Positions 1,168 through 34,012 of a stretch of DNA of 41,884 nt are shown here, piece after piece. The notes beneath the pieces were generated by a model. That model saw only the letters and a list, made by a program, of their open reading frames with translations. It ran no database searches and had not been told where the DNA came from. Origin of the DNA: a bacterium (lineage in GTDB: Bacteria; Zixibacteria; MSB-5A5; WJJR01); assembly GCA_035559435.1 (NCBI GenBank), contig DATMBC010000094.1, positions 1-41,884 on the forward strand. The letters are read 5' to 3'. Each line of letters opens with the position of its first letter. Positions within the stretch are counted from its first letter, which is position 1. The translations under genes were made by a program, and so were the position numbers.

Positions 1168-1178
1168 GATGTGACCTT

Positions 1179-17068: not shown

Positions 17069-20000
17069 ATGCGCTCCCCACACCGCGGTCGCCGTCGCGG
17101 ACAGACGCAGCGCGTCTGTCCCAGAGGTGGTTTCCTGCAACACTGCCTTCCGGTGATCTTCGCCTTGCTGGCGTTATCACCGCGCGCGCCGCTGGCCGCC
17201 ACCGGCAGCGCCAGCATCACCACGGATCAGTCGGAGTATCTCCTCGGCGACACCGTGATCTTCACGGGGGCCGGCTACGGCTCCGGCGAGATTGTGCTGA
17301 TGGAAGTCCAGCGATTGGACGGCACGGTGTATGAGTCCTGGACGGTGACGGCGTCGCCGACCGGAACGTTCACCACCGAGTGGCCTTCGACGGTCAATCT
17401 GTACGAGGGGGTGGTGCTCGAGGCGGCCGCGGAAGCGGATCCGTCGGGGCTGGTGGCGACGACGACGTTTGTCCTGGCGCCGCCGGCGGTCTCGCTGGAG
17501 CAGATGCGCAACGGCGCCGCCGGCTCGCCGGCCAGTCCGATCAATTGGGTGAACGGCAACGCGGGTGCGTCGAATTCGCATTTGACGGAGAAATGGTCGC
17601 AGGCCTACCGTGCGGTCTTCACCGACCTGACCGCGGGCGACACGATCGAATTCGTGGTCGGCTATGACATCACCCACAGCGGCAAGCACGCCATCGATTA
17701 CCTGACCTATTACGATCGGATCAACGATCCGACGCACACGTCGCTGTACGGGCACGCGCAGGAGACGATCGACCCGCTGCTGGGTGTCGGGGCGCTGCCG
17801 GGTCCGGTGTATGCGCCGATCCCGCCGCCGCCGCTGTCGTCCTGCACGCTGGTGGTGCCCAATCCGCCAGGCCCGTTGCAGTCGCAGCCCTGCACGAGCT
17901 TCGACAATCTCGATAACGACCCGACGCAGGTGCGGATGACGCTCTACGGCGGCTCGTTCACGGTTTCGACGCCGGTCAGCTATGACGCGGGCGGCGACCC
18001 AACGCAGGCGCAGTCGGAGGCGCGGGTGCGGGTCAAATTCGTGGCCGGCGGCTCGACGGCGGTGCTGTTGTGGGGCGGACATCTGGCCTCCAACACCGAC
18101 TGGGGCGCGGGGAATTCCGCCGGCGGCATCAGCGGCTCGCCCTATCACAACCGCGCCATCGAGCTGCGCATCAACGGCGACTTGAAGAATGTCGGCAATC
18201 AGGATCGGTCGCTGTCGGCCGAGGCGGTCGCGCCCTGCGACGTAACGATCACCTGCCCGCCGAACAAGACCATTGCATGCACTGAATCCACCGATCCATC
18301 CAACACCGGCACGCCCAGCTACACGGCAAGCAACTCCTGCGGCACGGTGACGTTGACCTACCATGACGCCGTCTCCGGCGTCTGTCCGGTAACGATCCAG
18401 CGCACCTGGGTGGCGATGGGGTCGGGCGGCGGCGATAGTTGCGTCCAGACCATCACCGTCGTGGACACGGTCAAGCCGACGCTGGCCGGGTGTCCGTCGA
18501 ATGTCACGGTGTCCTGCGGCGCGATTCCGCCGCCGGCCACGGTGACGGCCACCGACAACTGCGACCTGTCGGTCGCGGTGGTCTATTCGCAGACCTCGTC
18601 GCTGTCCGGTTGCGGCGGGTACACGGGCACGATCACCCGCAAGTGGGTGGCCACCGACGATTGCGGCAACAAGGACTCGTGCGTGCAGACGATCACGGTT
18701 GCCGACACGCAGGCGCCGAGTTGCAACATCGGGGCCGGACCGTTCACCTTCACGCAGTGCGCGCCGGCGGCGGTGGCGATTCCGGTGTCGGCGACCGACA
18801 ACTGCGACGCCGCGGTCACCTGCGCGGTGGTCGCGGGGCCGGGCACGGTCAGCGGCGGCAACTGGACCTACACCCCGTCGGGCGACGAGAGCTTCAGCGT
18901 CACCATCCGCTGCACCGATGATTGCGGCAATTACTGCGAGCAGTCGTTCAACGTCACCTTTGCGATCAACGATCCGCCGGTGTGCGCCACGGTGTCCGAC
19001 ACCGCCTACTTCCAGTGCGCGCCGGCGCAGGTGTGCCGTCCGGTTTCGGCCACCGATCCGAACGGCAATCTGAGCGGGTGCGCGGTGGTGGCCGGTCCGG
19101 GCACGGTCTCCGGCGGCAACTGGTGCTACACGCCATCCGGGGACGAGACGGTCAATGTGACCATCCGTTGCACCGACGCCTGCGGCGCCTACTGCGAGGA
19201 ATCGTTCAGCGTCACGTTTGTGATCAACGACGCGCCGGTGTGCTCGCCGATCGCGGACACCAGCTACTTCCAATGCGTGCCGACGCAGGTCTGCCGTCCG
19301 TATGGCTCGACTGATCCGAACGGTAATCTGACCGGCTGTGCGATCGTGAGCGGGCCGGGGACGTTGTCGGGCGGGAACTGGTGTTACACGCCGTCGGGCG
19401 ACGAGACGGTCAATGTCACCATCCGTTGCACCGATGCCTGCGGCGCGTTCTGTGAAGAATCGTTCAGCGTGACCTTCCAGATCAACGATCCGCCGGTGGT
19501 GAATCTCGGCAATGACATCTCTTTGCCGCAGACCTTCCCGCAGAATCCGGTCTGTTTCAACTACACGGTCAGCGATCCGAACGGTCTGACCGGGATCACC
19601 GAGACGCTGGTCGGCGCGCCGGGCGGCACGAGCTTCGACACCAGTTTGAATCAGATTTGCTTCACGCCACCGGGGACGGGGACCTACGAGTTTATCGTCT
19701 CCGCCACCGATCCGTGCGGCGCCTCCGACGTTGACACGCTGTATGTGCTGATTTCCGCCACACAGCCGCCGGTCTGCAACCTGCCCGGCGACACCAGCGT
19801 CCTGCAGTGCGCGCCGACCCAGATTTGTCTGCCGGTGTCGGCGACGGGCATCCATGGTCCGGTGACTTGCGCGGTCACCTCCGGCCCGGGGACGGTCGCG
19901 GGCGGGCAGTGGTGTTACACGCCGGTTGGCGACGGCGCGGTGACGGTGACAATCACCTGCACCGACACGCTGGGAGTGACCTGCAGCGGCTCCTTCACGG

Positions 20001-23000
20001 TGACGGTGGACATCAACGACGCGCCGGTGTGCTCGCCGATTGCGGATACGAGCTACTTCCAGTGCGCTCCGACGCAGGTCTGCCGTCCGTATGGTTCGAC
20101 CGATCCGAACGGCAACCTCACCGGCTGTGCGATTGTCAGCGGTCCGGGGACGTTGTCGGGTGGCAACTGGTGCTACACGCCGTCGGGCGACGAGACGGTC
20201 AATGTCACGATCCGTTGCACCGATGCCTGCGGCGCGTTCTGTGAGGAATCGTTCAGCGTCACGTTTGTGATCAACGACGCGCCGGTGTGTTCGCCGATTG
20301 CGGACACCAGCTACTTCCAGTGCGCTCCGACCCAGGTCTGCCGTCCGTATGGTTCGACCGATCCGAACGGCAACCTGACCGGCTGTGCGATTGTGAGCGG
20401 TCCGGGGACGTTGTCGGGCGGCAACTGGTGTTACACGCCGACGGGCGACGAGACGGTCAATGTCACGATCCGATGCACCGATGCCTGCGGCGCGTTCTGC
20501 GAGGAATCGTTCAGCGTCACCTTCATGATCGGTATGCCGCCGCAGATTGTGTGCGCGCCGAATGCAAATTACACCTGCGCCACGCAGGTGCCGCCGTGCA
20601 GCCCGTCGGATGTGACGGTGACGGGCGGGGCGGGCACGGTGACGGTGGTCTGCCAGTCGAGCAACAACGGCGGCACCGGTTGCCCGGGCAATCCGCTGAT
20701 TTACACGTACACTTACACCGCCACGGATTCCTGCGGCGCCCAGGCGCAGTGCGTGCGGACTTTGACGGTCATCGACAACGTGGCGCCGACGCTGTCTGGC
20801 TGTCCGACCAACGTGACGATTGCCTGCAACGCGCCGCTGCCGCCGCCGGCCACGGTCACCGCGGTCGACAATTGCGATCCGAGCGTCGCGGTCACGTTGT
20901 CGGAGACGTCAAACCTGACCGGATGCGGTGGGAACACCGGCACGGTCACGCGGGTGTGGACGGCGACCGACGATTGCGGCAACAGCGCGTCGTGCACGCA
21001 GGTGATCACGATCCAGGACACCCAGGCGCCGACCTGCAACATTCCGAGCGACTCGGTGATCCGTCTGCAATGCGCGCCGGCCAAGATCACGGTGCCGGTG
21101 TCCGCGACCGACAACTGCGATCCGGCGGTCATCTGCGACGTCGTGGCCGGGCCGGGGACGGTCATCTACGGCAATTGGGAATACACGCCGGTCAGCGAGG
21201 GCACGTTCGGGGTGACAATCCGCTGCACCGATGATTGCGGAAACTCCTGCGAGGGTTCGTTTGTGGTTTCGGTGCAGTTCAATGATCCGCCGACGATCGC
21301 GCTGGGTCCGGACCAATCGGTCTTTCAGTGCGCGCCGGCGCCGATCTGCGTAAACTACACCGTCTCCGATCCCAATACGACGGCGGGCCTCACCGAGACG
21401 CTGTTGTCCGGCCCTCCCGGCGCGGTCTTGAACGCGGGGGCCGATCAGGTTTGCTTCACGCCGTCCGGGGCGGGCGCCTACACGATCATCGTCCGCGCCT
21501 CGGACCACTGCGCGGCGACCGATGTGGACACGGTCGTCGTGAATGTCTCGCTCAACGCGCCGCCAACAATCTCCTTTGGTCCCGACCTGACACGCTTCCT
21601 CTGCGCGCCGGCGCCGTTGTGCATCGGTTACAGCGCCTCCGATCCGAATGGCAACGCCCTGACCGAGGTCCTGCTGTCCGGACCGGCGGGGGCCACCCTG
21701 AATGCCGCGTCCGATCAGGTCTGCTTCACGCCGGCGGCGTCGGGGAATTACACGTTCATCGTGCGGGTGCAGGACACCTGCGGGGCGAGCGATGTGGACA
21801 CGGTCGGTGTGATCGTGACGCTCAACCTGCCGCCGATTGCGGTGGGCCCGAACGACACGTCGCTGTTCCAGTGCGCCCCCGCGCCGCTCTGCCTGCCGGT
21901 CGGCGGGGTCGATCCGGAGGGACGGCCGCTGGTGATCAGCAAGATCAACGGTCCGGGCACGATCGCCGCCGGGCAGTGGTGCTACACCCCCTCGGGTGAC
22001 GAGACGGTGAATGTCACCTTCCGTGTCACCGATTCGTGCGGCCTTTTCGACGACGAGAGTTTCGCCGTCACCTTCAACCTGAATTCGCCGCCGGTCTGCC
22101 GGGCGCCCAACGACACGACCATTGTCATGGCCTGCTCGCTGCGCACGGTGGCGCTGCCGGTGAGCGCGAGCGATCCGGATGGCGGCCCGGTCACCTGCCA
22201 GGTGATCAGCGGTTCGGGGACGATCGTGGACGGGATCTGGTCCGTGACGCCCAGCGGGCCGGGGAACTACTGCGCGGTGGTGCGTTGCACCGACCCGTGC
22301 GGCGCGGTCTGCGAGGAAACCTTCTGTGTGAGCGTTTTGGTCAACAACGACGACTGCAACTGCCTCTTCAAGGTCAGCGTCAACGAGGGGGCCTCGATCA
22401 ACGCGCTCAACGGCCAGCTGGTGACCGTGCCGGTCAAGTTCGACCTGACCGGGGTGCCGGTCGGCGGCTTCGATCTGCTGCTCTGCTATGACGCGAGCGT
22501 CATCTCGTTGGTTGATGTCGAGAAGGGGTTTGCGATCGCCGATTGGGAGTATTTCACCTACCGCATCGGCGTCGCCGGAAACTGCACGGGCAGCAATTGC
22601 CCGTCCGGGATGGTCCGTCTGGTCGGCATCGCCGACATGAACAACGGCGCGCCGGTTGACCCGAGCGCCTTCCTGCCTGTCGGCGCGGTGGCGGACCTGT
22701 CGTTTGTGGTCACCTCCGACCGTAACTTCATCCATCAGTGCATTCCGATCCGGTTCTGCTGGTATGACTGCGCCGACAACACCATTTCCAGCAAGTCGGG
22801 CGACACCACGTTCCTGGAGATCAGCTTCGTCTACGACACCTGCCAGTCGAATCCGAAGGGCGATCCGGTGCCGGCGATCTGTTTCGAGAACGGCCGTATC
22901 TGCATCCAGGAGCCGCCCGACGACCGCGGCGACATCAACCTCAACGGCATTGCCAACGAGGTGGGTGACGCGGTGTTGTTCACCAACTACTTCCTCTTCG

Positions 23001-23803
23001 GCGGCACGGTCTGGGATCCGGTCTGGAGTCAGGTGCAGATTCTGGCGACCGATGTGAACGACGATGGCATCGTGCTGACGGTGGCGGACCTCATCTATCT
23101 CATCCGCATCATCACCGGCGACGAGCAGCCCTTCCCGCCGGGCGGCCATCCGAAGATGGCGCCGTATGCGCACACGGGCACGGCCACGCTTCGCCGCGAG
23201 GACGGTTCTGTCACAGTGACGACGAACGCGCCGGTGGACATCGGCGGTCTGCTGTTGGTCTTCCGCGCCGACGGCATCGGCACCGGCGAACCGGAGCTGC
23301 TGACGGCGTCGGCCGGATTGAACGTGCGCGCGCATCGCGACGGCAGCGAACTGCGTCTCCTTGTCCACCCGTCCTGGTCGGGCGGGAGGACGGTGATTCC
23401 GTCGGGTCGGCATGATGTGCTGGCCATCCCCACCTCCGGATCGGGACAACTCGAACTGGTCGAGGTCCAGATGTCGGATGCGCAGGGCGCGCTGTTGTCC
23501 GCGAGCGCGACACAGGCGTTTGTGCCCGGTGACTACGCTCTGATGCAGAACTATCCGAACCCGTTCAACGCCGGCACGGTGATCTCCTTCAACCTGAAGG
23601 ATGCGTCCGACTGGACCGTGACCGTCTATAACGTGATGGGTCAGACGATCCGCAGTTTCAGCGGGACGGCCGATGCCAGCACGGTCAATGTCGAATGGAA
23701 CGGGCAGGATGCCAACGGGACGACGGTGGCCAGCGGCATTTACTTCTACCGCGTGTCCACGCCGGCCTGGAGCGCCACGAAGAAGATGACGTTGATCCGG
23801 TAG
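17069..23803 (+). CDS. Giant secreted Cys-rich repeat protein with cohesin-, dockerin- and sorting-like domains
   Basis: 2244 residues. A signal peptide ends near LAATGSAS (about 45). After an N-terminal beta-rich part, HYR-like repeats (TDNCD, DDCGN, DTQAP motifs) and many Ig-like modules follow, with the recurring pattern YFQCAP..VC, SGPGT..GG.WCYTP and RCTDACG. About 1763-1944 resembles a cohesin-type domain (GFDLLLCYDASVISLVDVEKG). About 1953-2020 is dockerin-like, with two repeats (DINLNGIANEVGDAVLFTNY and DVNDDGIVLTVADLIYLIRI). About 2153-2244 is a FlgD-like/type IX sorting-type end (MQNYPNPFNAGTVISF, WNGQDANGTTVASGIYFYR). The many Cys fit disulfide-bonded extracellular modules. Inferred role: surface scaffold or adhesin. 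The ATG at 17069 has GAGAGG about 10 bases upstream; a terminator follows the stop. Confidence 0.88.
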   Translation: MRSPHRGRRRGQTQRVCPRGGFLQHCLPVIFALLALSPRAPLAATGSASITTDQSEYLLGDTVIFTGAGYGSGEIVLMEVQRLDGTVYESWTVTASPTGTFTTEWPSTVNLYEGVVLEAAAEADPSGLVATTTFVLAPPAVSLEQMRNGAAGSPASPINWVNGNAGASNSHLTEKWSQAYRAVFTDLTAGDTIEFVVGYDITHSGKHAIDYLTYYDRINDPTHTSLYGHAQETIDPLLGVGALPGPVYAPIPPPPLSSCTLVVPNPPGPLQSQPCTSFDNLDNDPTQVRMTLYGGSFTVSTPVSYDAGGDPTQAQSEARVRVKFVAGGSTAVLLWGGHLASNTDWGAGNSAGGISGSPYHNRAIELRINGDLKNVGNQDRSLSAEAVAPCDVTITCPPNKTIACTESTDPSNTGTPSYTASNSCGTVTLTYHDAVSGVCPVTIQRTWVAMGSGGGDSCVQTITVVDTVKPTLAGCPSNVTVSCGAIPPPATVTATDNCDLSVAVVYSQTSSLSGCGGYTGTITRKWVATDDCGNKDSCVQTITVADTQAPSCNIGAGPFTFTQCAPAAVAIPVSATDNCDAAVTCAVVAGPGTVSGGNWTYTPSGDESFSVTIRCTDDCGNYCEQSFNVTFAINDPPVCATVSDTAYFQCAPAQVCRPVSATDPNGNLSGCAVVAGPGTVSGGNWCYTPSGDETVNVTIRCTDACGAYCEESFSVTFVINDAPVCSPIADTSYFQCVPTQVCRPYGSTDPNGNLTGCAIVSGPGTLSGGNWCYTPSGDETVNVTIRCTDACGAFCEESFSVTFQINDPPVVNLGNDISLPQTFPQNPVCFNYTVSDPNGLTGITETLVGAPGGTSFDTSLNQICFTPPGTGTYEFIVSATDPCGASDVDTLYVLISATQPPVCNLPGDTSVLQCAPTQICLPVSATGIHGPVTCAVTSGPGTVAGGQWCYTPVGDGAVTVTITCTDTLGVTCSGSFTVTVDINDAPVCSPIADTSYFQCAPTQVCRPYGSTDPNGNLTGCAIVSGPGTLSGGNWCYTPSGDETVNVTIRCTDACGAFCEESFSVTFVINDAPVCSPIADTSYFQCAPTQVCRPYGSTDPNGNLTGCAIVSGPGTLSGGNWCYTPTGDETVNVTIRCTDACGAFCEESFSVTFMIGMPPQIVCAPNANYTCATQVPPCSPSDVTVTGGAGTVTVVCQSSNNGGTGCPGNPLIYTYTYTATDSCGAQAQCVRTLTVIDNVAPTLSGCPTNVTIACNAPLPPPATVTAVDNCDPSVAVTLSETSNLTGCGGNTGTVTRVWTATDDCGNSASCTQVITIQDTQAPTCNIPSDSVIRLQCAPAKITVPVSATDNCDPAVICDVVAGPGTVIYGNWEYTPVSEGTFGVTIRCTDDCGNSCEGSFVVSVQFNDPPTIALGPDQSVFQCAPAPICVNYTVSDPNTTAGLTETLLSGPPGAVLNAGADQVCFTPSGAGAYTIIVRASDHCAATDVDTVVVNVSLNAPPTISFGPDLTRFLCAPAPLCIGYSASDPNGNALTEVLLSGPAGATLNAASDQVCFTPAASGNYTFIVRVQDTCGASDVDTVGVIVTLNLPPIAVGPNDTSLFQCAPAPLCLPVGGVDPEGRPLVISKINGPGTIAAGQWCYTPSGDETVNVTFRVTDSCGLFDDESFAVTFNLNSPPVCRAPNDTTIVMACSLRTVALPVSASDPDGGPVTCQVISGSGTIVDGIWSVTPSGPGNYCAVVRCTDPCGAVCEETFCVSVLVNNDDCNCLFKVSVNEGASINALNGQLVTVPVKFDLTGVPVGGFDLLLCYDASVISLVDVEKGFAIADWEYFTYRIGVAGNCTGSNCPSGMVRLVGIADMNNGAPVDPSAFLPVGAVADLSFVVTSDRNFIHQCIPIRFCWYDCADNTISSKSGDTTFLEISFVYDTCQSNPKGDPVPAICFENGRICIQEPPDDRGDINLNGIANEVGDAVLFTNYFLFGGTVWDPVWSQVQILATDVNDDGIVLTVADLIYLIRIITGDEQPFPPGGHPKMAPYAHTGTATLRREDGSVTVTTNAPVDIGGLLLVFRADGIGTGEPELLTASAGLNVRAHRDGSELRLLVHPSWSGGRTVIPSGRHDVLAIPTSGSGQLELVEVQMSDAQGALLSASATQAFVPGDYALMQNYPNPFNAGTVISFNLKDASDWTVTVYNVMGQTIRSFSGTADASTVNVEWNGQDANGTTVASGIYFYRVSTPAWSATKKMTLIR
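19223..20527 (+). repeat. Near-identical 258-bp coding modules
   Basis: Three copies of an 86-residue Ig-like module are almost identical at the DNA level: 19223-19480, 20012-20269 and 20270-20527. The last two are directly adjacent. A more diverged relative precedes them at about 18965-19222. Copies keep frame and differ mostly at synonymous positions, which points to recent duplication or gene conversion. Confidence 0.8.
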
Positions 23804-23866: not shown

Positions 23867-24323
23867 GCGGGAAACGGGCGCGTTCCCACGCGATCCATGT
23901 ATTTGATCAAATCCTGAAATGGTCGGCGGGGCTCAGCGCAGATCGTCACGGAACTGATCGAATTTTGTACGGTATCATTTCCGAGGATTCCTCCGGGGGG
24001 AGTGGTATCCGAGTCAAGCCGCTGTCTTGCATGACCCGCTGCCCGTCGCCTGCTTCCCGGCACGTGTGTTCCCGGACCGAATCACTCATGTTAAAATTCT
24101 GATCGATCCCAAGGGCGCCGTCGACTTTGGACGCGGACAAAGGGAGGCAATGAAGCTTTTCCTCTCAATTCTTCGGCTGTCATGGCCGATCCTGAAAGAT
24201 CAGAGGCGGCAGCATCAACGATAGAATTTGTGCAGATTGAACCGGGACCCCGGTCACGCTTCTGGTCTTCAGTCGCCGCTGACACGGGGATCACAACAAG
24301 GCAGAAGGCACGCTGGGCAGACG
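23867..24323. other. Non-coding stretch before the electron-transfer operon
   Basis: About 457 bases of lower GC than its surroundings. It must hold the promoter of the operon that starts at 24324. Short self-complementary spots such as GAGGATTCCTC near 23990 are too small to call. I see no convincing -35/-10 pair and no supported gene. Confidence 0.4.
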
Positions 24324-25277
24324 ATGAACACGGCGAGCAGCGAAGCGGCCATCGAACTCACCGCGGCGACGGCAACGACTCCGATCGAGGCAGGGGCGTC
24401 GGCCGTTGCGAATCCCGGCGCGTGGCGGCGACGAATCAAAATCGCGGCCTACCTGGGGGCGTTTGCCGTCCTGCTGGCGCTGTTCATCGACGGCTATTCC
24501 TACTACTCGACGCCGCTGGCTGAGCGGCCGCATCACCCCGATTATCGGATCCTGAGACCGGCGGGGAGCCGTGGGCTGCTCTACGGCATGTCGGGCGCGG
24601 CGCTGATGGTCCTGATGCTGGGCTACACGCTGCGCAAGCGGTTCCGGGCGCTGTCGCGCTGGGGCGCTCTGCCAATCTGGCTGGACTTCCACATCTTCTG
24701 CGGGGTCGTTGGTCCGCTGCTGGTGGTCCTGCACACCTCCTTCAAAATTCAGGGGCTGGTGGCGGTCGCGTTCTGGGCGATGGTGTGCGTGGCCGTCAGC
24801 GGCGTGCTGGGGCGTTATCTCTATTTGCAGATTCCCCGCAACCTGCGCGGCGACCAATTGTCTCTGGAGGAGATCCGGAAACTGAAGGACGAACTGCGCG
24901 CCGAGTTGCGCGGGCAGTTTGGTTTGTCGGATGCGGCGATCGCGCATCTCGAAGGCGGTGTCGGACACCGCACTGCCGTCGGCGGCTGGCGTTCGCTGTT
25001 CTGGTTTGTGCTCGATGATCTGACCTCGCGCGTGCGCCGCGGGACGCCGTCACCGGCCTTGGCCGGGGCCGGACGCAGCCATGCGCAGATTCACCGTCTC
25101 AACGACCTCATCGGGCGGATGACCCGTCTGGACCGCCGCATCGCGGTGTGGGGGCAGATGCAGCGGCTCTTCCATTACTGGCATGTGTTCCACAAGCCGT
25201 TCGCCATCGTCATGTATGTGGTGATGGGCATTCACATTGTCGTGGCGGTCTGGACCGGCTACGGCTGGATGTTCTGA
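24324..25277 (+). CDS. Di-heme b-type cytochrome, membrane electron-entry subunit
   Basis: 317 residues with about five membrane helices (roughly 40-56, 85-100, 121-139, 143-163, 293-311). Two helices carry His pairs spaced 14 residues apart: His123/His137 (WLDFHIFCG...VVLHTSF) and His290/His304 (VFHKPFAIV...GIHIVVA). That is the classic arrangement for two stacked b hemes across a membrane. A charged loop of about 120 residues separates them. The ATG at 24324 is chosen because the first hydrophobic helix starts 37 residues later and nothing upstream looks coding. It opens the operon and is followed 8 bases later by the 20-heme cytochrome. The inferred role is quinol oxidation or reduction and electron transfer across the inner membrane; the exact family is not recognised. 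Confidence 0.8.
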   Translation: MNTASSEAAIELTAATATTPIEAGASAVANPGAWRRRIKIAAYLGAFAVLLALFIDGYSYYSTPLAERPHHPDYRILRPAGSRGLLYGMSGAALMVLMLGYTLRKRFRALSRWGALPIWLDFHIFCGVVGPLLVVLHTSFKIQGLVAVAFWAMVCVAVSGVLGRYLYLQIPRNLRGDQLSLEEIRKLKDELRAELRGQFGLSDAAIAHLEGGVGHRTAVGGWRSLFWFVLDDLTSRVRRGTPSPALAGAGRSHAQIHRLNDLIGRMTRLDRRIAVWGQMQRLFHYWHVFHKPFAIVMYVVMGIHIVVAVWTGYGWMF

Positions 25278-25285
25278 ACGCACTC

Positions 25286-26971
25286 ATGCGTCAAGTTCTC
25301 CTTTTCCTGTTGGGTGGGGTTGTGATAGCGGCCTTCATGGCGGACACAACGAGCGCGCAATTGTCGCCGGGCGATCTGCATCGGGCGCACGCGTTTCTCG
25401 ACGGGGTCGCAAACTGCGCCAAGTGCCACGATCGCGACCGCGGCGAGCTGCGGGCCAAGTGCCTCGATTGCCACAGCGCGATCCGCGCGCGGATCGCGGC
25501 GGGACAGGGACTGCACGCCCAGCCCGACTACCGTGACTGCCAGCACTGCCATGTGGAGCATCAGGGGCGCGACTTCGCGCTGGTCTGGTGGCCCGAAGGC
25601 GACAGCGCTTTTGATCACGCGCTGACGGGTTATGTCCTGCGCGGCCGTCACATTCAGGCGCCCTGCCGCGCCTGCCACCGGCCCGAGAACATGCGCGATG
25701 CGGCGCCGCTTGTGGCACAGAAGAAAGACTTGGCCCGTACCTATCTCGGATTGGACACGACCTGCCTGTCCTGCCATCACGACGAACACCGCGGACAACT
25801 GGCTTCCACCTGCCAGCAGTGCCACACCCTGGATGGCTGGACACCGGCGCCGGGGTTCGATCATGGCCGGACGAAGTTCGCCCTGACCGGCAAACACACT
25901 GCCACCGCCTGCGCCAAGTGCCACGAGACCGTGCCCGACCCGGGGCAGGCGCGGGACACCTCGTATCTGCGCCTCGCCAATGTCAAACACGGCAACTGTA
26001 CCGACTGTCATCAGGACACACATGGCGGACGTTTCGGCGGACGGTGCGAGAGCTGCCACAACACCGGCGGATGGACGGTCACGCAGACGGCGGCATTCGA
26101 TCATGCCCGCGCGCGCTATCCCCTCGAGGGCGCGCATCGTCAGGTGGCCTGCGAGAAGTGCCATCCGGCCGGGCAGAAAAAGACGGGGCTGAAATTCGCG
26201 CGCTGCCTGGATTGTCATCAGGATCATCACAAAGGCGAATTTGCGCATCGTTCCCAGCAGGGCGCCTGCGAAGAGTGCCACACGGTGGCGGGGTTTGCGC
26301 CGGCGCTGTTCACCATTGAGCAGCATGCCGCCGGTGACTTCGCGCTGCGCGAGGCGCATCTGGCGGTGCCGTGCAATGCCTGCCACAGTTCCAAGGCGGC
26401 GCCGTTCGCCGGACGGCGGGCGCCGTTTACCTGGAGCGCCACGCACTGCCAGGATTGTCACCCCGATGTCCATAAAGGCACATTGGCGCGGATGGTGGAA
26501 CGCGATGGTTGCGACGGTTGCCATTCCGAGTCGGCGTGGAGCGCGATCGCCTTCAATCACGACAGCACCGCGTTTCCATTGCGCGGGCGGCACGCGTCTG
26601 CCGTCTGTGCCGCCTGCCACAAGGGCGACACGACGGTCGTGACGATCGCGCGGCTCGCCTTTGCGCCGATGAAGCGCGATTGTGAATCGTGCCATCGCGA
26701 CATTCACCGCGGGCAATTCGCCGTCACCGATTCGCTGCCGGCAACACGCTGCGACCGTTGCCACACGTCGGAGAACTGGCGTCCCGAGCGCTTCGACCAC
26801 AGCCGGACCGAATACCCACTGGATGGCGCGCACGCCAAGGCGCCCTGCAGCGGCTGCCACAAGCCATCCACCGTCGATGGCGCGCCGTTTGTGAATTACC
26901 AGATCGCCGATCGCACCTGCCGCGCCTGTCATGGCGCCGACACGGTCGTGCCCGCCGGAGGCCCGCGATGA
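25286..26971 (+). CDS. 20-heme c-type cytochrome
   Basis: 561 residues with a Sec signal peptide (MRQVLLFLLGGVVIAAF) and 20 CXXCH motifs. The repeating pattern is H..C..CH, then a Trp-containing turn, FDH..T.F.L.GKH, and C..CH (for example LDGWTPAPGFDHGRTKFALT). The same FDH/GAH framework recurs in the 55-heme protein that follows, so the two share ancestry. Extra His residues near each motif (HHDEHRGQ, HQDTHGG, HQDHHKG) can provide distal ligands. The ATG at 25286 is chosen by the signal peptide; its ribosome site is weak and translation may be coupled to the b-type cytochrome. The stop codon overlaps the next ATG (ATGA). Inferred role: periplasmic electron carrier between the membrane cytochrome and the barrel. 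Confidence 0.93.
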   Translation: MRQVLLFLLGGVVIAAFMADTTSAQLSPGDLHRAHAFLDGVANCAKCHDRDRGELRAKCLDCHSAIRARIAAGQGLHAQPDYRDCQHCHVEHQGRDFALVWWPEGDSAFDHALTGYVLRGRHIQAPCRACHRPENMRDAAPLVAQKKDLARTYLGLDTTCLSCHHDEHRGQLASTCQQCHTLDGWTPAPGFDHGRTKFALTGKHTATACAKCHETVPDPGQARDTSYLRLANVKHGNCTDCHQDTHGGRFGGRCESCHNTGGWTVTQTAAFDHARARYPLEGAHRQVACEKCHPAGQKKTGLKFARCLDCHQDHHKGEFAHRSQQGACEECHTVAGFAPALFTIEQHAAGDFALREAHLAVPCNACHSSKAAPFAGRRAPFTWSATHCQDCHPDVHKGTLARMVERDGCDGCHSESAWSAIAFNHDSTAFPLRGRHASAVCAACHKGDTTVVTIARLAFAPMKRDCESCHRDIHRGQFAVTDSLPATRCDRCHTSENWRPERFDHSRTEYPLDGAHAKAPCSGCHKPSTVDGAPFVNYQIADRTCRACHGADTVVPAGGPR

Positions 26972-29900
26972 GACCGCTCCTCCCGGTGATCGCGTTGGTA
27001 TTGGGCGCCGTGGTTGCGGCGGCGGCGCAGACGGCGCCGCGCAATCCGCACGGCGGGATCCGCTGGGACTGCCAGGATTGCCATACGTTGACATCGTGGA
27101 GTCGGATGCGGGAACCGTTGAGGTTTGCGCACGGCGAGACGGGATTCCCGCTGGTCGGCGCGCACGCCAAGACGAATTGTATATCCTGCCACCACGATCT
27201 GCGTTTTGTCGAGACCGAATCGTCCTGCGCCAATTGTCACGCCGACATCCATCGCGGCCAGCTCGGGGCCGAGTGCCAGACCTGCCACACCGCCGAGAAC
27301 TGGCAGAGCCGGCGCGAGGGGTTCGAGCAACACGCGCAGCGGGGATTCCCGCTGGTCGGTGTGCACGCCATCGCCAACTGCGACGCCTGCCATGCCAATC
27401 AACTGCCGCGCGAGTTTGCCGGGACACCGACCGATTGCGCCGCCTGCCATGCCGCCGACTTTCAGGCGACCAGCGATCCGCCGCATGTGGCCGCCGGGTT
27501 TACGCAGGAGTGCCAATCCTGCCACGGTATCGGCGCGCTCTCGTGGGCGAACGCGACGTACCAGCATCCGGCCTCGTTCCCGCTTGCCAACGCCCATAAC
27601 GGGCCATCGTGCAACGATTGCCACGCGACCGCCTACGCCGGGACCTCGCCGGACTGTTTTGCCTGCCATGAGTCGGATTACCGCACCGCGCCCGACCCCG
27701 ACCATGACGCGGCGGGATTTTCCACGCAGTGCGCCGAGTGCCACACCACGATCGCGTGGAAACCGGCCGCGTTGGATCATGGGCTGACCTCTTTCCCGCT
27801 CACCGGCGCGCATGTCGCGGTCAGTTGCAATGCCTGCCATATCGCCTCGTTCAGCGGGACGCCATCGGCGTGTGTGGCGTGTCATGAGTCGAACTTCACC
27901 GCCGCGGCCGATCCCGATCATGTGGGCGGCGAATTCCCCGAGGATTGCGAGCACTGCCATGGGACGGCCGCCTGGACGCCGGCAACGTTTGATCACGACC
28001 TCTCCGATTTTCCACTCACCGGCGCGCATGTGTCGGTGACCTGCAACAGTTGCCACGTGTCGGGATACACCGGCACCGCCGACGATTGTGTCGCCTGCCA
28101 TGAGTCCGATTACCTGGCCGCCGGGGATCCGAAGCATGTCGAGGCCGGATTCCCGCGGCAGTGCGCGCAGTGCCACAACACCGCGGCATGGGAGCCGGCG
28201 GACCTGGATCACGATCTGACGGATTTCCCGCTGACAGGCGCGCATGTGTCGGTGACCTGCGAGAACTGCCACACGGCGGGCTACACCGGCACGCCCTCGG
28301 CCTGTGTGGCGTGCCATGAATCCGATTACACGAATGCCGCCGATCCGAATCACGTGAGCGGCGGATTCCCGACTGATTGTGCACAATGCCACACGACGTC
28401 CGGATGGGAGCCGGCGGGAATCGATCACGATCTGACGGATTTCCCGCTGACCGGCGCGCACACCATGGTGACCTGCAACCGTTGCCATGCGTCCGGATAT
28501 ACCGGCACACCGCTGGAGTGTGACGCCTGCCACCATGCCGATTACGCCAACGTCGCCGATCCGAATCACACAAGCGCCGGATTCTCGACCGCCTGCGCCG
28601 AGTGCCACACCACCGCCGGCTGGGTTCCGGCGTTGCTGGATCATGATCTCACCGATTTCCCGCTCACCGGCGCGCATGTGGCTGTCAGCTGCAATTCCTG
28701 CCACAGCGCCGGATACACGGGGACCGCAGCGGCGTGCATCGCCTGCCACGAGACGGATTACACCACGACAACTGATCCCGATCATGCCGGCGCTGGAATT
28801 TCCATGGAGTGCACACAGTGCCACACGACGGCCGCCTGGGAGCCGACGGATTTCGATCACGATCTCACCCAATTCCCGTTAACCGGCCTGCATGTGTCGG
28901 TGACGTGTAACAGTTGCCACGCGGCCGGGTATTCCGGCACGCCGCTGGAGTGCGATGCCTGTCACCGTGCCGACTACACCGGCGTTGTCGATCCCGATCA
29001 CGTGGGCGCCGGCTTTTCGACCGCCTGCGCCGACTGCCACACCACCGCGGGGTGGACGCCGGCGTCGCTGGATCATGACATCACCGGCTTCCCGTTGACC
29101 GGGGCGCACACATCGGTCACTTGCGCGAATTGCCACACGTCGGGGTACACGGGCACCGCGTCGGCGTGCGTCGCCTGTCATGAGAGCGACTATCGCGGTG
29201 TGAATGATCCTGACCACATTGCCGCGGGATTCCCGGACGATTGTGTGCTCTGCCACACGACCGCGGGCTGGGAACCGGCCAACGTCGATCACAGCCTGAC
29301 CGACTTCCCGCTCACCGGCGCGCACTCATCTGTCACTTGCGAGAACTGCCATACATCGGGGTACACAGGGACACCATCAAACTGCTTTGCCTGCCATGGG
29401 TCGGATTATCAGGCGGCGGCGGACCCTGATCATGCCGCGGGAGGATTTCCGACCGACTGCGCCCGGTGCCACACGACGACCGCCTGGGAGCCGGCTTGGT
29501 TTGATCACGCATCGACGCAGTTCCCGCTCACCGGCGCTCATGCCTCAGTCACTTGCGAGAACTGTCATGCATCGGGGTACGGCGGGACGCCGCTAGCATG
29601 TTTTGCCTGTCACGATGATGACTACAACGCCGTGACCGATCCCAATCACGTCAGCGCGGGCTTCGGCACGATCTGCAGCGAATGCCACACCACATCGGGG
29701 TGGACGCCGGCATTGCTGAATCACGACATCACCGGCTTCCCGCTCACCGGCGCACACCTGGCGGTCTCGTGCAACACCTGCCACGCGTCCGGATACACAG
29801 GGACGGCGTCGGAGTGCCTGGCCTGTCACCAGAGCGATTACACCGCGGCTGTCAGTCCGGATCACAACGGCCTGGCGACGGATTGCGCGCAATGCCACAC

Positions 29901-31011
29901 GACGACCGGGTGGAAGCCATCATCGTTCAATCACAACCAGACGCAGTTTGTGCTCACTGGAGCGCACACATCGGTCAGCTGTAACAACTGCCACGCCGCC
30001 GGGTATACCGCGACACCAATGGCATGTTTTGCCTGCCACGATGACGACTACAACGGTGTGGGCGATCCTGACCATGCGCTGGCGGGTTTCTCGACGGTTT
30101 GCACACCTTGCCATAACACGACCGCCTGGTCGCAGGTGTCGTGGAGCCACAATCAGACGGGATTCACACTGACCGGGGCGCACCAATCAGTGACGTGCAA
30201 CAGCTGCCACTCGACGGGGTTTGCGAACACATCATCGGCGTGCTATGCCTGCCACAGCAGCGACTTTGCCGGCGCGACCAACCCCGATCATGTGGCCGGT
30301 GGAATCCCGACACTGTGCGAGCAATGCCACACAACGTCGGCGTGGACCCCCGCGTCCTTTGATCACAATCTCTCGGGATTCCCGCTGACCGGCGCGCACG
30401 CGACCGTGAACTGCAACAGTTGCCATGCCAATGGTTACACCGGCACGCCGACGGACTGTGACGCCTGCCACCATGCCGACTATCTGGGTGTGCTGGATCC
30501 CAATCATGTGAGCGCGGGATTTTCGACGCTCTGCCAGCAGTGTCATACCACAATGGCGTGGACGCCGGCGTCGTTTGATCACAATCAATCGGGATTCCCG
30601 CTCACGGGGGCGCACACGACCGTGACCTGCAACAGTTGCCACGCCAACGGCTCCAGCGGCACACCGATGGAGTGCGCGGCCTGCCACAACAACGACTACC
30701 TGTCGGCAACGCCCAACCATGTGGCGGCGGGATTCCCGACAACCTGCCAGACATGCCACACGACCAGCGCCTGGACACCGGCCAATTGGGATCATGACGC
30801 GCAGTACTTCCCAATCTACTCCGGCGCGCACAAGGACAAGTGGAACGATTGCGTCGATTGCCATGTGAGCGCGGGGAATTTTGCGGCGTTCGAGTGCATT
30901 TTCTGTCACCAGCACAATCAGACGGACACCGACAGAGACCACACCGGGGAGCCGGGATACCAATATCTCAGTTCGGCATGCTATGCCTGTCATCCGCGGG
31001 GGTCGCATTGA
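26968..31011 (+). CDS. 55-heme modular c-type cytochrome
   Basis: 1347 residues with a Sec signal peptide (MRPLLPVIALVLGAVVAAAA) and 55 CXXCH motifs by direct count: one near the N-terminus and then 18 tandem units of three. A typical unit reads FPLTGAH, C..CH, GYTGTP, C.ACHE.DY, DPDH, AGFPTDC..CHTT.AWEPA, then FDHD. Conserved His in GAH, DPDH and FDH are candidate distal ligands, one per heme. The last unit is divergent (YFPIYSGAH...CYACHPRGSH). The heme density is about one per 24 residues, as in wire-like cytochromes. GGAGG lies 6 bases before the ATG, which overlaps the previous stop; the stop overlaps the following TTG start. Inferred role: a long electron conductor across the periplasm or beyond the outer membrane. 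Confidence 0.95.
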   Translation: MRPLLPVIALVLGAVVAAAAQTAPRNPHGGIRWDCQDCHTLTSWSRMREPLRFAHGETGFPLVGAHAKTNCISCHHDLRFVETESSCANCHADIHRGQLGAECQTCHTAENWQSRREGFEQHAQRGFPLVGVHAIANCDACHANQLPREFAGTPTDCAACHAADFQATSDPPHVAAGFTQECQSCHGIGALSWANATYQHPASFPLANAHNGPSCNDCHATAYAGTSPDCFACHESDYRTAPDPDHDAAGFSTQCAECHTTIAWKPAALDHGLTSFPLTGAHVAVSCNACHIASFSGTPSACVACHESNFTAAADPDHVGGEFPEDCEHCHGTAAWTPATFDHDLSDFPLTGAHVSVTCNSCHVSGYTGTADDCVACHESDYLAAGDPKHVEAGFPRQCAQCHNTAAWEPADLDHDLTDFPLTGAHVSVTCENCHTAGYTGTPSACVACHESDYTNAADPNHVSGGFPTDCAQCHTTSGWEPAGIDHDLTDFPLTGAHTMVTCNRCHASGYTGTPLECDACHHADYANVADPNHTSAGFSTACAECHTTAGWVPALLDHDLTDFPLTGAHVAVSCNSCHSAGYTGTAAACIACHETDYTTTTDPDHAGAGISMECTQCHTTAAWEPTDFDHDLTQFPLTGLHVSVTCNSCHAAGYSGTPLECDACHRADYTGVVDPDHVGAGFSTACADCHTTAGWTPASLDHDITGFPLTGAHTSVTCANCHTSGYTGTASACVACHESDYRGVNDPDHIAAGFPDDCVLCHTTAGWEPANVDHSLTDFPLTGAHSSVTCENCHTSGYTGTPSNCFACHGSDYQAAADPDHAAGGFPTDCARCHTTTAWEPAWFDHASTQFPLTGAHASVTCENCHASGYGGTPLACFACHDDDYNAVTDPNHVSAGFGTICSECHTTSGWTPALLNHDITGFPLTGAHLAVSCNTCHASGYTGTASECLACHQSDYTAAVSPDHNGLATDCAQCHTTTGWKPSSFNHNQTQFVLTGAHTSVSCNNCHAAGYTATPMACFACHDDDYNGVGDPDHALAGFSTVCTPCHNTTAWSQVSWSHNQTGFTLTGAHQSVTCNSCHSTGFANTSSACYACHSSDFAGATNPDHVAGGIPTLCEQCHTTSAWTPASFDHNLSGFPLTGAHATVNCNSCHANGYTGTPTDCDACHHADYLGVLDPNHVSAGFSTLCQQCHTTMAWTPASFDHNQSGFPLTGAHTTVTCNSCHANGSSGTPMECAACHNNDYLSATPNHVAAGFPTTCQTCHTTSAWTPANWDHDAQYFPIYSGAHKDKWNDCVDCHVSAGNFAAFECIFCHQHNQTDTDRDHTGEPGYQYLSSACYACHPRGSH
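27145..31002 (+). repeat. 18 tandem triheme coding units, mostly exact 216-bp period
   Basis: The Phe codon of the FPLTGAH-type motif marks each unit: 27145, 27346, 27577, 27793, 28009, 28225, 28441, 28657, 28873, 29089, 29305, 29521, 29737, 29947, 30163, 30379, 30595 and 30808. From 27577 to 29737 every step is exactly 216 bp (72 residues, three hemes); later steps are 210, 216, 216, 216 and 213. The first two steps (201 and 231) are irregular. The array is in frame throughout and is protein-coding. Confidence 0.95.
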
Positions 31012-32636
31012 GGCGCGCGCTTGCGATCATGCTCTTTGCCTGCCTGACCCTCCGTGGCGCGGCGTCGACATGGGGAGATGTTGTCGAGCGCGCGTTCAAG
31101 GTCACCTTCGTCTCGGCTGAACTGGTCTATATCAATGGCGGCCGAGCGGAGGGGCTCACGGTTGGCGCGCGCCCCGCGGTCTGGAGCGGCGACGCCAAGC
31201 TCGCCGAACTGGAGGTGGCGCACCTGGCCGAGCATTCCGCCGCCTGCCGCATCATGGGTCCGGGCGCGAGCATCCGTATCGGAGACCCGGTCAGAATCAG
31301 CCTCGAGCGTTCGACAAGCGCCGATACCGTCATCGCGCCGTCTGTGTCCGGCGATTCGAGCTCCAGGACCATGCCGCCCGCTTCTTCGCCGGCCGCTGCG
31401 CCGCGGACGCCGTCGGCGCCGGCCCAGGTCTCCGGCGGCATCGCCGTGCTCTACAGCGATTGGAACGATCGCGGCGACGCGGACTTGGATTTTGCCCAGG
31501 GCCGTGTCGATTTCGATCTGCGCGTGGACCGTCTCTGGACGCCGGGGCTGTCGGTGGTTGTGCGCTCCACCGGACGTCAGGATCGCTGGAGCGGGGCATC
31601 GTCCAGCCGCGGCGACAATACCTGGGAGAGTCGGATCGCGACACTGGCGCTGGACTATCGTGCGCCGGGCTCGGCGATGGGATTTTCGGCGGGCCGGATC
31701 AATCCGGCGCGGCTGGGAGCGATTGGGCGGCTCGACGGCGCGTCGGTTGAATACAATGTCTCGCCCGTTTGGCGTCTGGGCCTCTTCGGCGGCGCGAACT
31801 CGCGCTGGCAGTACACCGACGAGCGACCGGAGTTGCAGACCTACGGCGTGTATGCCGGATTCCGTCGTGGCAGCGCGCGGCGTCTGCTGATCGATCAGAC
31901 CATCGCGACGGTTGGGCAGTACCACGGCCGGACCGCCAGCCGCGAAGCGCTGCTGGCGCAGGGACGGATCATGCGCGCAGGCCGTTTCAGCATCAGCCAT
32001 CTTCTGGAAATCGACGCTAACCGCGGCTGGCGACGCGATCAGGCCGGCGAGTCGATCAGTCTGTCCAGCGCCTTTGCCCAGGGGCAGGTGGATTTGTCGC
32101 GGGCGGTGATCGCCACTGTCTCGTATGACACGCGCAAGAGCTTCCGCAATTACGAAACCCGCGATATCGCCGACAGCATCTTCGATGATCGCGTTCGCCA
32201 GGGTGTCCGAGCGCAGCTCGATTTGATGCTGCCGCAGGGAATTTCGCTTTCCGGGGGTGTCGGCTTACGATCCGTGGCGGGCGAGGCGGCGAAGACCCAT
32301 TCCTACAACGGCGCGGTGCGCAAGCAGGGCTTGTTCAACGCGCGGAGCAACGTGAGTGTCACGGGCTCGCGGTTCACGAGTGAGTCCAGCAGCGGCTACA
32401 ACGTGAGCGCGTCGCTGGGCCAGGGGCTGGGCGCGCGCACCTGGCTGTCGCTGGGCGGCGGATGGTACCGTTACACGCTGGCCGGGCCGTCGCTACGCCG
32501 GCTGAATCGCAAGGTCGATCTCAGCGCGCGGATTGCGCTGTCGCGGGCGCTGGCCCTCAATGGGCTCGGGCAGTGGCAGGACGGTGATGACACCCGCGGG
32601 CATCGTTTCGAGGCGGGAATCAGCGCGCAGTTTTAG
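31008..32636 (+). CDS. Outer-membrane beta-barrel (porin-like) partner of the cytochromes
   Basis: 542 residues. The TTG at 31008 overlaps the stop of the 55-heme gene (TTGA) and gives a signal peptide (RRALAIMLFACLTLRGAAS); an ATG at 31029 is a possible alternative. Residues about 30-100 form a small beta domain (VYINGGRAEGLTVGARPAVW, IGDPVRI) like the C-terminal domain of FlgT-type proteins. A Ser/Pro/Ala linker follows, and from about 140 alternating polar/hydrophobic strands continue to the end, which closes with GISAQF; a terminal Phe is the usual signal for Bam-dependent barrels. It contains no heme motif. Position in the operon suggests it is the sleeve of a porin-cytochrome conduit, but no sequence match to MtrB or PioB is claimed. 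Confidence 0.75.
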   Translation: MRRALAIMLFACLTLRGAASTWGDVVERAFKVTFVSAELVYINGGRAEGLTVGARPAVWSGDAKLAELEVAHLAEHSAACRIMGPGASIRIGDPVRISLERSTSADTVIAPSVSGDSSSRTMPPASSPAAAPRTPSAPAQVSGGIAVLYSDWNDRGDADLDFAQGRVDFDLRVDRLWTPGLSVVVRSTGRQDRWSGASSSRGDNTWESRIATLALDYRAPGSAMGFSAGRINPARLGAIGRLDGASVEYNVSPVWRLGLFGGANSRWQYTDERPELQTYGVYAGFRRGSARRLLIDQTIATVGQYHGRTASREALLAQGRIMRAGRFSISHLLEIDANRGWRRDQAGESISLSSAFAQGQVDLSRAVIATVSYDTRKSFRNYETRDIADSIFDDRVRQGVRAQLDLMLPQGISLSGGVGLRSVAGEAAKTHSYNGAVRKQGLFNARSNVSVTGSRFTSESSSGYNVSASLGQGLGARTWLSLGGGWYRYTLAGPSLRRLNRKVDLSARIALSRALALNGLGQWQDGDDTRGHRFEAGISAQF

Positions 32637-32641
32637 CGGAT

Positions 32642-34012
32642 ATGGCCATGACGGAAACCACAATCATGTGGGCGGGAGTGCTGGCGTTGGGCGCGGGGAT
32701 CATCGTGCCTTACGCGCTCCGGTTCCATCGCCGGCAACGGGCGGCCTGGCGGCGCAAGCATGAAGCGCTGCAGGCAGGCATCGAAAAACCGCGCGGGCAG
32801 TATCCGTTCATCGATCCCGGCTTGTGCATTGGCTGCGGGGGCTGTGTGGCCGCCTGCCCCGAGGGCGATGTGCTCGATGTCGTGTATGGGACCGCGATGG
32901 TCATCAACGGCGCCCGCTGTGTGGGACACGGCCACTGCGAGCGCGCCTGCCCCGTCGGCGCGCTGGTGGTCGGGCTGGGTGACACCCGTGAGCGCGAGGA
33001 TATTCCGATTCTCTCCCGTGAGTATGAGACCACGGTGCCCGGGTTGTTCATTGTCGGGGAGCTCGGCGGGTTGTCGCTCATTCGCAATGCGATCCGTCAG
33101 GGGCGCGCGGTGATCGAGACCATCGCGCAGCGGCTGCCATCGCTGCCGGCGGCGGAAGCCTATGATGTGATCATCGTCGGAGCCGGCCCGGCCGGGCTGA
33201 CCGCCGCGCTGTCGGCGATCGAACGCGGATTGAACTACCTGGTCATCGACCAGAACCAGATCGGCGGCACGATCCTGCATTATCCCCACCGGAAACTGGT
33301 GATGACCCAGCCGGTCGAGATCCCTCTCTATGGCTGTCTGCGCCGCGAGGAATATTCCAAGGAAGAGCTGCTCGAGATCTGGACCGAGATTACGACCCGC
33401 TTTGATGTGCACGTGCGCACCGGCGAGCGGGTCGACGATGTGTCGATGGACGGCGGGACATTCCGGATCATCACCAGCGCCGGGATCTACCGGGCACGAA
33501 ATGTGGTGCTGGCGCTGGGGCGTCGCGGCACCCCGCGCAAACTGGGCGTGCCGGGCGAAGATCTCCCCAAGGTGATGTATCAACTGGTCGACGCGCGTTC
33601 CTATGCCGGGCAAAACCTGCTGGTTGTCGGCGGCGGCGACAGCGCGGTCGAGGCGGCGATCGGTCTGGCGCGCCAACCGGGGAACCGTGTCTGGATTTCC
33701 TACCGCAAGGCGTCGTTTGCGCGGGTGAAGAAGAAAAACGAGGACAAGATCCGCGAGCAGATCGATCGCGGCCAGGTGACCGCGTTGTTTGAATCCGAGG
33801 TGCGTCTGATCGACCCGGCCGCGGTCACGCTTGCCACGCGCGACGGGACGGTGGAAATCCCGAACGACTATGTCTTCGTGATGATCGGCGGGCTGCCGCC
33901 GTTTGAGATGCTGCGGGCGGCCGGGGTCCGTTTTGGCGGCAAAACGACCGACGCGCGCGCAGCCACCCCTTCGGCCGCTACCGTCGTAACGTCCGACACG
34001 CGCCGCCGATAG
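32642..34012 (+). CDS. Membrane-anchored Fe-S flavoprotein oxidoreductase (thioredoxin-reductase fold)
   Basis: 456 residues. One N-terminal helix (about 8-26) is followed by a ferredoxin-type domain: CIGCGGCVAACP (C62, C65, C68, C72) and CVGHGHCERACP (C93, His96, C99, C103). In the second motif His replaces the second Cys. From about 172 comes a two-dinucleotide-domain flavoprotein: VIIVGAGPAGLTAA for FAD and LLVVGGGDSAVEAAIGLA for NAD(P)H. The redox CxxC of thioredoxin reductases is absent, as in YpdA-type enzymes. It starts 5 bases after the barrel gene. Inferred role: a cytoplasm-facing link between NAD(P)H or ferredoxin and the quinone/b-cytochrome step. The direction of electron flow is unknown. 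The end is Ala/Thr/Arg-rich tail. Confidence 0.85.
   Translation: MAMTETTIMWAGVLALGAGIIVPYALRFHRRQRAAWRRKHEALQAGIEKPRGQYPFIDPGLCIGCGGCVAACPEGDVLDVVYGTAMVINGARCVGHGHCERACPVGALVVGLGDTREREDIPILSREYETTVPGLFIVGELGGLSLIRNAIRQGRAVIETIAQRLPSLPAAEAYDVIIVGAGPAGLTAALSAIERGLNYLVIDQNQIGGTILHYPHRKLVMTQPVEIPLYGCLRREEYSKEELLEIWTEITTRFDVHVRTGERVDDVSMDGGTFRIITSAGIYRARNVVLALGRRGTPRKLGVPGEDLPKVMYQLVDARSYAGQNLLVVGGGDSAVEAAIGLARQPGNRVWISYRKASFARVKKKNEDKIREQIDRGQVTALFESEVRLIDPAAVTLATRDGTVEIPNDYVFVMIGGLPPFEMLRAAGVRFGGKTTDARAATPSAATVVTSDTRRR

Follow-up and report, generated by a model that had tools for sequence, protein, structure and literature searches.

Introduction

Bacterial porin-cytochrome clusters of the PCC3 type consist of a porin, a large extracellular cytochrome with 10–85 hemes, a periplasmic cytochrome with ~21 hemes, and an inner-membrane protein termed IMP (PMC5566968; PMC10734462). 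According to He et al., 2017 (PMC5566968), this IMP comprises ~300 residues with five transmembrane (TM) segments, carries WX3HX13H motifs on TM3 and TM5, and has an SGXXG motif on TM4. The large cytochromes contain 22–39 residues per heme in repeats that are rich in Thr, Ser, Ala, and Gly, and most of the porins are very large, with up to 42 TM strands, "most" being meant here as a tendency (PMC5566968; PMC10734462). A survey of Gallionellaceae in 2023 described members with 10–35 hemes that were modelled as long, mostly linear structures (PMC10734462), and a protein with 86 hemes has been published for ANME archaea. Very large, repetitive, and length-variable PCC3 cytochromes are therefore not new in themselves.

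Tandem triheme units are also a feature of the dodecaheme c7 polymers of the GSU1996 type from Geobacter, in which a single chain holds four separate c7 domains with bis-His hemes. Extended heme chains of another kind occur in the cytochrome filaments OmcS, OmcE, and OmcZ, for which helical rises of 47 Å (6-heme subunit), 34 Å (4-heme subunit), and 58 Å (8-heme subunit), respectively, have been published.

Here we describe a PCC3-like operon from a member of the phylum Zixibacteria. It lies in a window of 41,884 nucleotides, the whole stretch of DNA that was analysed (contig DATMBC010000094.1 of assembly GCA_035559435.1, positions 1–41,884). The source genome (2.998 Mb in 106 contigs, estimated to be 100% complete) also encodes cytochrome c assembly genes and haem-copper oxidases. 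The central protein of the operon carries 55 hemes and belongs to a family whose members differ from one another by whole triheme units.

The Operon and its Partner Proteins

Five tightly packed genes on the forward strand (24324–34012) encode, in this order, the IMP, a 20-heme cytochrome (MHC20), the 55-heme cytochrome (MHC55), a predicted outer-membrane β-barrel, and an oxidoreductase. The stop codon of MHC20 overlaps the ATG of MHC55 (ATGA), 17 bases separate the stop codon of MHC55 from the start of the barrel gene, and five bases lie between the latter and the oxidoreductase gene.

The IMP (24324–25277, + strand) has 317 residues when translated from the first in-frame ATG, which is taken as its probable start codon. 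Hydropathy analysis and a motif scan reveal five hydrophobic segments, two WX3HX13H motifs (His155/His169 and His322/His336, with Trp at position −4, numbered from the start of the frame at 24228), and the SGXXG motif in the form SGVLG. The columns of these His residues and of SGXXG are invariant or nearly so in 16 genomes. Judging from its sequence, the IMP is likely to be a di-heme b electron relay. MHC20 (25286–26971, + strand; 561 residues) has a Sec-type signal peptide, 20 CXXCH motifs, and Pfam matches to Cytochrome_C7/CytC3, and is presumed to act as a periplasmic bridge.

The β-barrel protein (31029–32636, + strand; 535 residues) ends in Phe, and its AlphaFold2 model, which is of moderate confidence (pLDDT 65.4), shows a small N-terminal β domain followed by ~22 predicted strands. 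Foldseek matches of this model are outer-membrane barrels, and no MtrB-like match appears among the best 50. The oxidoreductase (32642–34012, + strand; 456 residues) combines one N-terminal TM segment, two [4Fe-4S] motifs, and an FAD/pyridine-nucleotide domain, as found by Pfam, NCBIfam, and hydropathy searches.

Near-full-length matches to the IMP profile were obtained in 26 of the 133 genomes of the phylum (about a fifth), and since the complete genome of a congener (G001) has no IMP match, the system is accessory. Among named records, a Candidatus Zixiibacteriota MAG comes closest, with 69% identity in the best segment. In relatives, too, the barrel and oxidoreductase genes adjoin the cytochrome genes, and the barrel, oxidoreductase, and IMP matches are all of roughly one size. 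Outside the phylum, a complete operon is located on plasmid pEMTOL02 of Emticicia oligotrophica DSM 17448 (L070), a cultured member of the Bacteroidota with a finished sequence. It encodes cytochromes with 23 and 40 hemes, an IMP with matching motifs, and the oxidoreductase, while a protein of 538 residues occupies the position of the barrel. Small IMP-like proteins with 25–28% identity are encoded on alphaproteobacterial plasmids within copper-linked clusters; their genes adjoin those for ferredoxin reductases and, in one case, for a small cytochrome, and this proximity supports a redox partnership between such types of protein.

Architecture of the 55-Heme Cytochrome

MHC55 (26968–31011, + strand) is a protein of 1347 residues that begins with ATG and a Sec-type signal peptide and has no lipobox Cys. 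A motif count of the open reading frame gives exactly the 55 CXXCH motifs of the original prediction, compared with a mean of 0.78 and a maximum of 5 in 2000 residue-shuffled versions. All 110 of its cysteines fall within these motifs and none is free. Pfam assigns Cytochrome_C7 and class III cytochrome c domains to the protein, which has 24.5 residues per heme and a Thr + Ser + Ala + Gly content of 40%, versus 32–33% in MHC20. The mature protein is expected to weigh about 140 kDa as the apo form and 173 kDa once all 55 hemes are attached. That heme counts of this order are rare, as had also been claimed, is only partly right, because proteins with 85 and 86 hemes have been published and a relative examined here has 73.

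The spacing between motifs settles to 32-15-25 along the chain, and the predicted strict 216-bp period is borne out, as the distance from heme 8 (27610) to heme 38 (29770) equals 10 × 216 bp. The intervals 27577–29737, given originally, and 27610–29770 have the same span and represent different phases of the repeat. The array was detected independently by TRF. Regarding the proposed layout of one lone heme plus 18 units of three, the 18 triheme units hold, whereas the lone heme may equally well be the last one instead of the first (18 × 3 + 1). The first two units (68 and 79 residues) and the last one (78 residues) are of non-standard length, and for this reason they are regarded as caps rather than as copies of the standard unit. 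The protein may thus be divided into an N-terminal cap (27070–27609, + strand) with hemes 1–7 at spacings of 36-16-16-35-19-25-33, which is kept in orthologues of the main clade (clade 1), a variable triheme array (27610–30744, + strand) with hemes 8–51, including ten exact 216-bp periods at 27610–29769, and a C-terminal cap (30745–31008, + strand) with hemes 52–55 at spacings of 35-15-28. Each of the 18 units contains at least three His residues outside the motifs, so that there are enough second His ligands for every heme. In all 125 middle units from 17 genes, at least two such His residues lie in the long spacer and one lies in the tail.

A repetitive gene of this kind raises the question of whether its length was altered during assembly, and array collapse or expansion had been named beforehand as a finding that would overturn the prediction. 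Four related assemblies (G002, G017, G025, and G054) do break or frame-shift in or at the array, and these broken genes were left out of the unit counts. The array in the window, however, contains no repeated k-mer of 30 or more, and misassembly is unlikely on this ground. The units share a mean DNA identity of 65%, with 48% at third codon positions, a divergence indicating that the underlying duplications are old and that none is recent. Considering further that the finished Emticicia plasmid has an equal architecture and that intact long arrays occur in several independent genomes, an origin of the whole array as an assembly artefact seems barely conceivable.

How the array folds was approached with AlphaFold2 on residues 25–542 (518 residues), using an alignment of relatives together with the array's own fragments as input. 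The resulting confidence (pLDDT 44.7, pTM 0.21) is too low for use, and the misplacement of the relatives' N-terminal cap by MAFFT in this alignment may have harmed the model. A sequence search of the PDB with the MHC55 protein returned no match at E 0.01, and a search with the MHC55 profile returned one weak, unrelated match only. For the predicted, and still hypothetical, regular wire-like structure, a simple length estimate can be given. The published figures for OmcZ, OmcS, and OmcE correspond to a calculated rise of 7.3–8.5 Å per heme, and if MHC55 were packed like these filaments, a straight chain of 55 hemes would reach ~40–47 nm. Multiheme proteins with all-His ligation are known to polymerise in other organisms, which would lead one to think that MHC55 might itself form a filament like that of OmcS or OmcZ, with one 55-heme chain per subunit. 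This is very improbable, given the lack of a sequence match to any solved chain, including OmcS, OmcE, and OmcZ, and given that one MHC55 chain by itself amounts to several filament subunits and that its length is freely variable.

A Ladder of Heme Counts and its Origin

Comparison of unit number across related genomes shows that relatives differ by whole triheme units. In 19 uninterrupted orthologues and paralogues, that of the window included, the heme count is always 10 + 3k and ranges from 10 to 73 (10, 16 in five, 19, 22 in four, 25, 28, 40, 43, 52, 55, 67, and 73); these sequences share kinship and do not represent 19 independent events. The off-ladder genes, namely those with 18, 21, or 27 hemes and one that is split by a stop codon, carry double spacings such as 42, 44, or 49, which correspond to one lost motif. 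In the main clade, motif spacing is conserved near-exactly at both ends (36-16-16-35-19-25 at the N-terminus, 35-15-28 at the C-terminus), and identity to MHC55 is 50–65% for the N-terminal cap and 59–69% for the C-terminal cap. The partner cytochrome has 20 hemes in the main clade (uninterrupted frames); its count in the other clade is either 17 or 20, and that in Emticicia is 23. Among the operon proteins, MHC55 alone varies widely in length. A second clade (G092, G095, G098, and G104) has a similar core that is lengthened by a different tandem module, the copies of which are 37–51% identical to the C-terminal cap versus 31–43% to the middle unit.

Growth by unit duplication, as originally proposed, is supported by these whole-unit differences and by three further observations. 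The nearest neighbour of a middle unit lies within its own gene or a congeneric pair for 58% of the 125 units, compared with 14% for shuffled labels. Unit-by-unit alignment of two congeners with 67 (G005) and 73 (G006) hemes, whose units are 85–99% identical, leaves two separate single-unit gaps, and the adjacent units 10 and 11 of the Emticicia protein have 92% DNA identity. These observations indicate that whole triheme units have been gained and lost, singly where this can be resolved. The variability in length, suggested originally for strains, was seen between species only, and recent duplication is absent inside the array of the window. A 432-bp hexaheme super-repeat, hinted at by TRF, was also considered as the growth step and rejected, as DNA identity at lag 2 barely exceeds that at lag 1 (68.2% versus 65.9%) and odd values of k occur in the 10 + 3k series.

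It is tempting to assign a function to this ladder. As a tentative proposal, which we hold to be possible but by no means established, the reach of an extracellular heme wire would be set genetically by the number of triheme units between docking caps, with the second lineage multiplying its C-terminal cap instead. Conversely, array length might be nearly neutral, with unequal recombination shifting it and only the caps mattering functionally. The very broad range inside one phylum, the congeners that differ by two single-unit steps, and a 10-heme paralogue (L043) that consists of the two caps without any middle unit would all agree with neutrality. However, the putative ligand His residues are kept in 125 of 125 units and MHC55 has no free Cys, suggesting that the units are maintained as heme sites, and arrays of 52–73 hemes persist across several genera despite the cost of heme; neutral drift in length is hence an unlikely explanation.

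A Proposed Electron Conduit

Taken together, these features probably mark the operon as a PCC3-like porin-cytochrome conduit through which electrons would pass into or out of the cell. The oxidoreductase, facing the cytoplasm, would pass electrons between the IMP and either NAD(P)H or ferredoxin, and four His residues of the IMP would bind a pair of b hemes spanning the inner membrane. MHC20 would take electrons over the periplasm to the outer-membrane barrel, where MHC55 may dock via one or both conserved caps, its triheme array projecting outward as a bis-histidine heme wire directed at minerals, other cells, or redox-active solutes. Electron flow could run either way, as export or as uptake. 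The array evolves in length as single triheme units are added or dropped, and the caps and partner proteins remain unchanged.

This reading is favoured because the IMP carries the published PCC3/PCC4 signature, conserved in 16 genomes, and because the order of the operon is kept among relatives, including Emticicia; the cytochrome c assembly genes of the genome also count for it. MHC55 may be placed outside the cell on account of its composition, which fits that of published extracellular PCC3 cytochromes, and its widely varying length would suit a part that is free of the constraint of a membrane pore. Acidity was discarded as a mark of an outer protein, being strong in the window (net charge −112) but absent in a relative (G016) and reversed in Emticicia.

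Against an extracellular position stands the signal peptide, which is plain and accompanied by neither a lipobox nor a recognisable export signal. These same features would be expected if MHC55 were periplasmic and served as an intermembrane bridge or a charge store, with MHC20 plugging the barrel, and electron storage in PCC3 cytochromes has been discussed by published authors. The width of the periplasm should be constant, though, whereas the length of this cytochrome ranges from 10 to 73 hemes; its low residue-per-heme ratio and richness in Thr, Ser, Ala, and Gly are those of the published extracellular partner, and the partner, with its near-constant 20 hemes, corresponds to the periplasmic cytochrome of published clusters, for which the median is 21. 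A periplasmic MHC55 thus appears rather unlikely, and we prefer the extracellular wire.

Giant cytochromes have usually been described singly and with irregular heme counts, whereas here one family spans 10 to 73 hemes in three-heme steps with near-constant partners. Its natural lengths, or the deletion of units, make it testable whether more hemes bring a longer reach, faster transfer, or greater storage. The complete 40-heme copy on the plasmid of a cultured type strain would allow such experiments independently of cultivating an uncultured phylum. If reach is indeed set by unit number, the system would be a molecular wire whose length is tuned in nature, and one of its hosts is in culture.

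Comparison with Known Systems

The likeness to PCC3 consists of the gene set, the IMP motifs, and composition, each set against published descriptions. The operon in the window brings together an adjacent porin, a large cytochrome, a ~20-heme cytochrome, and an IMP, the last with 317 residues, five hydrophobic segments, both WX3HX13H motifs, and SGXXG, and MHC55 falls within the published range for residues per heme and shares the richness in Thr, Ser, Ala, and Gly and the tandem units. There are also differences. The barrel has ~22 strands in a model of moderate confidence, compared with up to 42 in PCC3, and fewer than MtrB; because it is smaller than the typical PCC3 porin, we use the label PCC3-like rather than PCC3. 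The conserved FAD/2×[4Fe-4S] oxidoreductase does not belong to the published PCC3 gene set, the heme number follows 10 + 3k while PCC3 counts in Gallionellaceae include 11, 12, 14, 15, and 18, and the hosts are Zixibacteria and, via a plasmid, Bacteroidota instead of Proteobacteria. In the open-licence literature, we found neither this system in Zixibacteria or Bacteroidota, nor strict three-heme steps with fixed caps, nor the extra oxidoreductase or a second mode of lengthening.

With MtrCAB, MtoAB, and PioAB, the operon shares the common logic of a barrel-held cytochrome that conducts across the outer membrane, but those systems use decaheme parts and a larger barrel and lack an IMP of the type found in the window. 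MHC55 and MHC20 score 41 and 57 bits against the DmsE/MtrA-family profile, which covers the decahemes MtrA and MtoA, versus a curated cut-off of 192, and with 55 and 20 hemes and scores this far below it they were rejected as members of that family. Compared with the GSU1996 type, the family described here has a unit with 32-15-25 spacing, and its conserved caps enclose as many as 21 middle units. OmcS, OmcE, and OmcZ likewise form extended chains of bis-His c hemes, but they do so as non-covalent polymers of subunits with 4–8 hemes.

Genomic Surroundings and Plasmid Copies

Two further genes on the window contig deserve mention. A 13-CXXCH multiheme cytochrome is encoded on the minus strand at the left contig end (window 49-2037), 22 kb away from the five-gene operon. 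A secreted-type protein of 2244 residues with bacterial Ig/HYR domains and a C-terminal sorting-type tail is encoded on the plus strand at 17069-23803, and its gene contains a 258-bp tandem repeat at 18820-20523.

The whole operon is also found on the Emticicia oligotrophica plasmid pEMTOL02 (NC_018749.1, 74429-99350), where it is preceded by a CcsA-type cytochrome c biogenesis gene; this replicon could have carried the operon from lineage to lineage. Short relatives of the inner-membrane protein are likewise encoded on plasmids, namely those of Methylocystis, Roseomonas, and Sphingobium, where they adjoin ferredoxin reductase or 2Fe-2S genes and lie within or close to copper-resistance gene clusters.

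Variation in the Cytochrome Array

In a congener, the frame changes inside the array at about position 11260 of JACQFV010000097.1, at the point where the continuation of a unit is expected, and this interruption probably reflects either faulty assembly or a gene that is itself broken. A minimal core form of the cytochrome is a 10-heme paralogue, encoded on the minus strand at 6657-7484 of locus L043, immediately after a 43-heme gene, and it retains both caps with zero middle units between them.

A second mode of lengthening is observed in the clade of related genomes G104, G098, G092, and G095 (loci L064, L065, L068, and L069, respectively), in which the C-terminal-cap module, with a spacing of 34-15-26/28, has been copied in tandem to give a longer cytochrome, and in which the partner cytochrome of the operon carries 17 hemes. 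In this clade, growth proceeds via the C-terminal-cap module and not via the middle unit.
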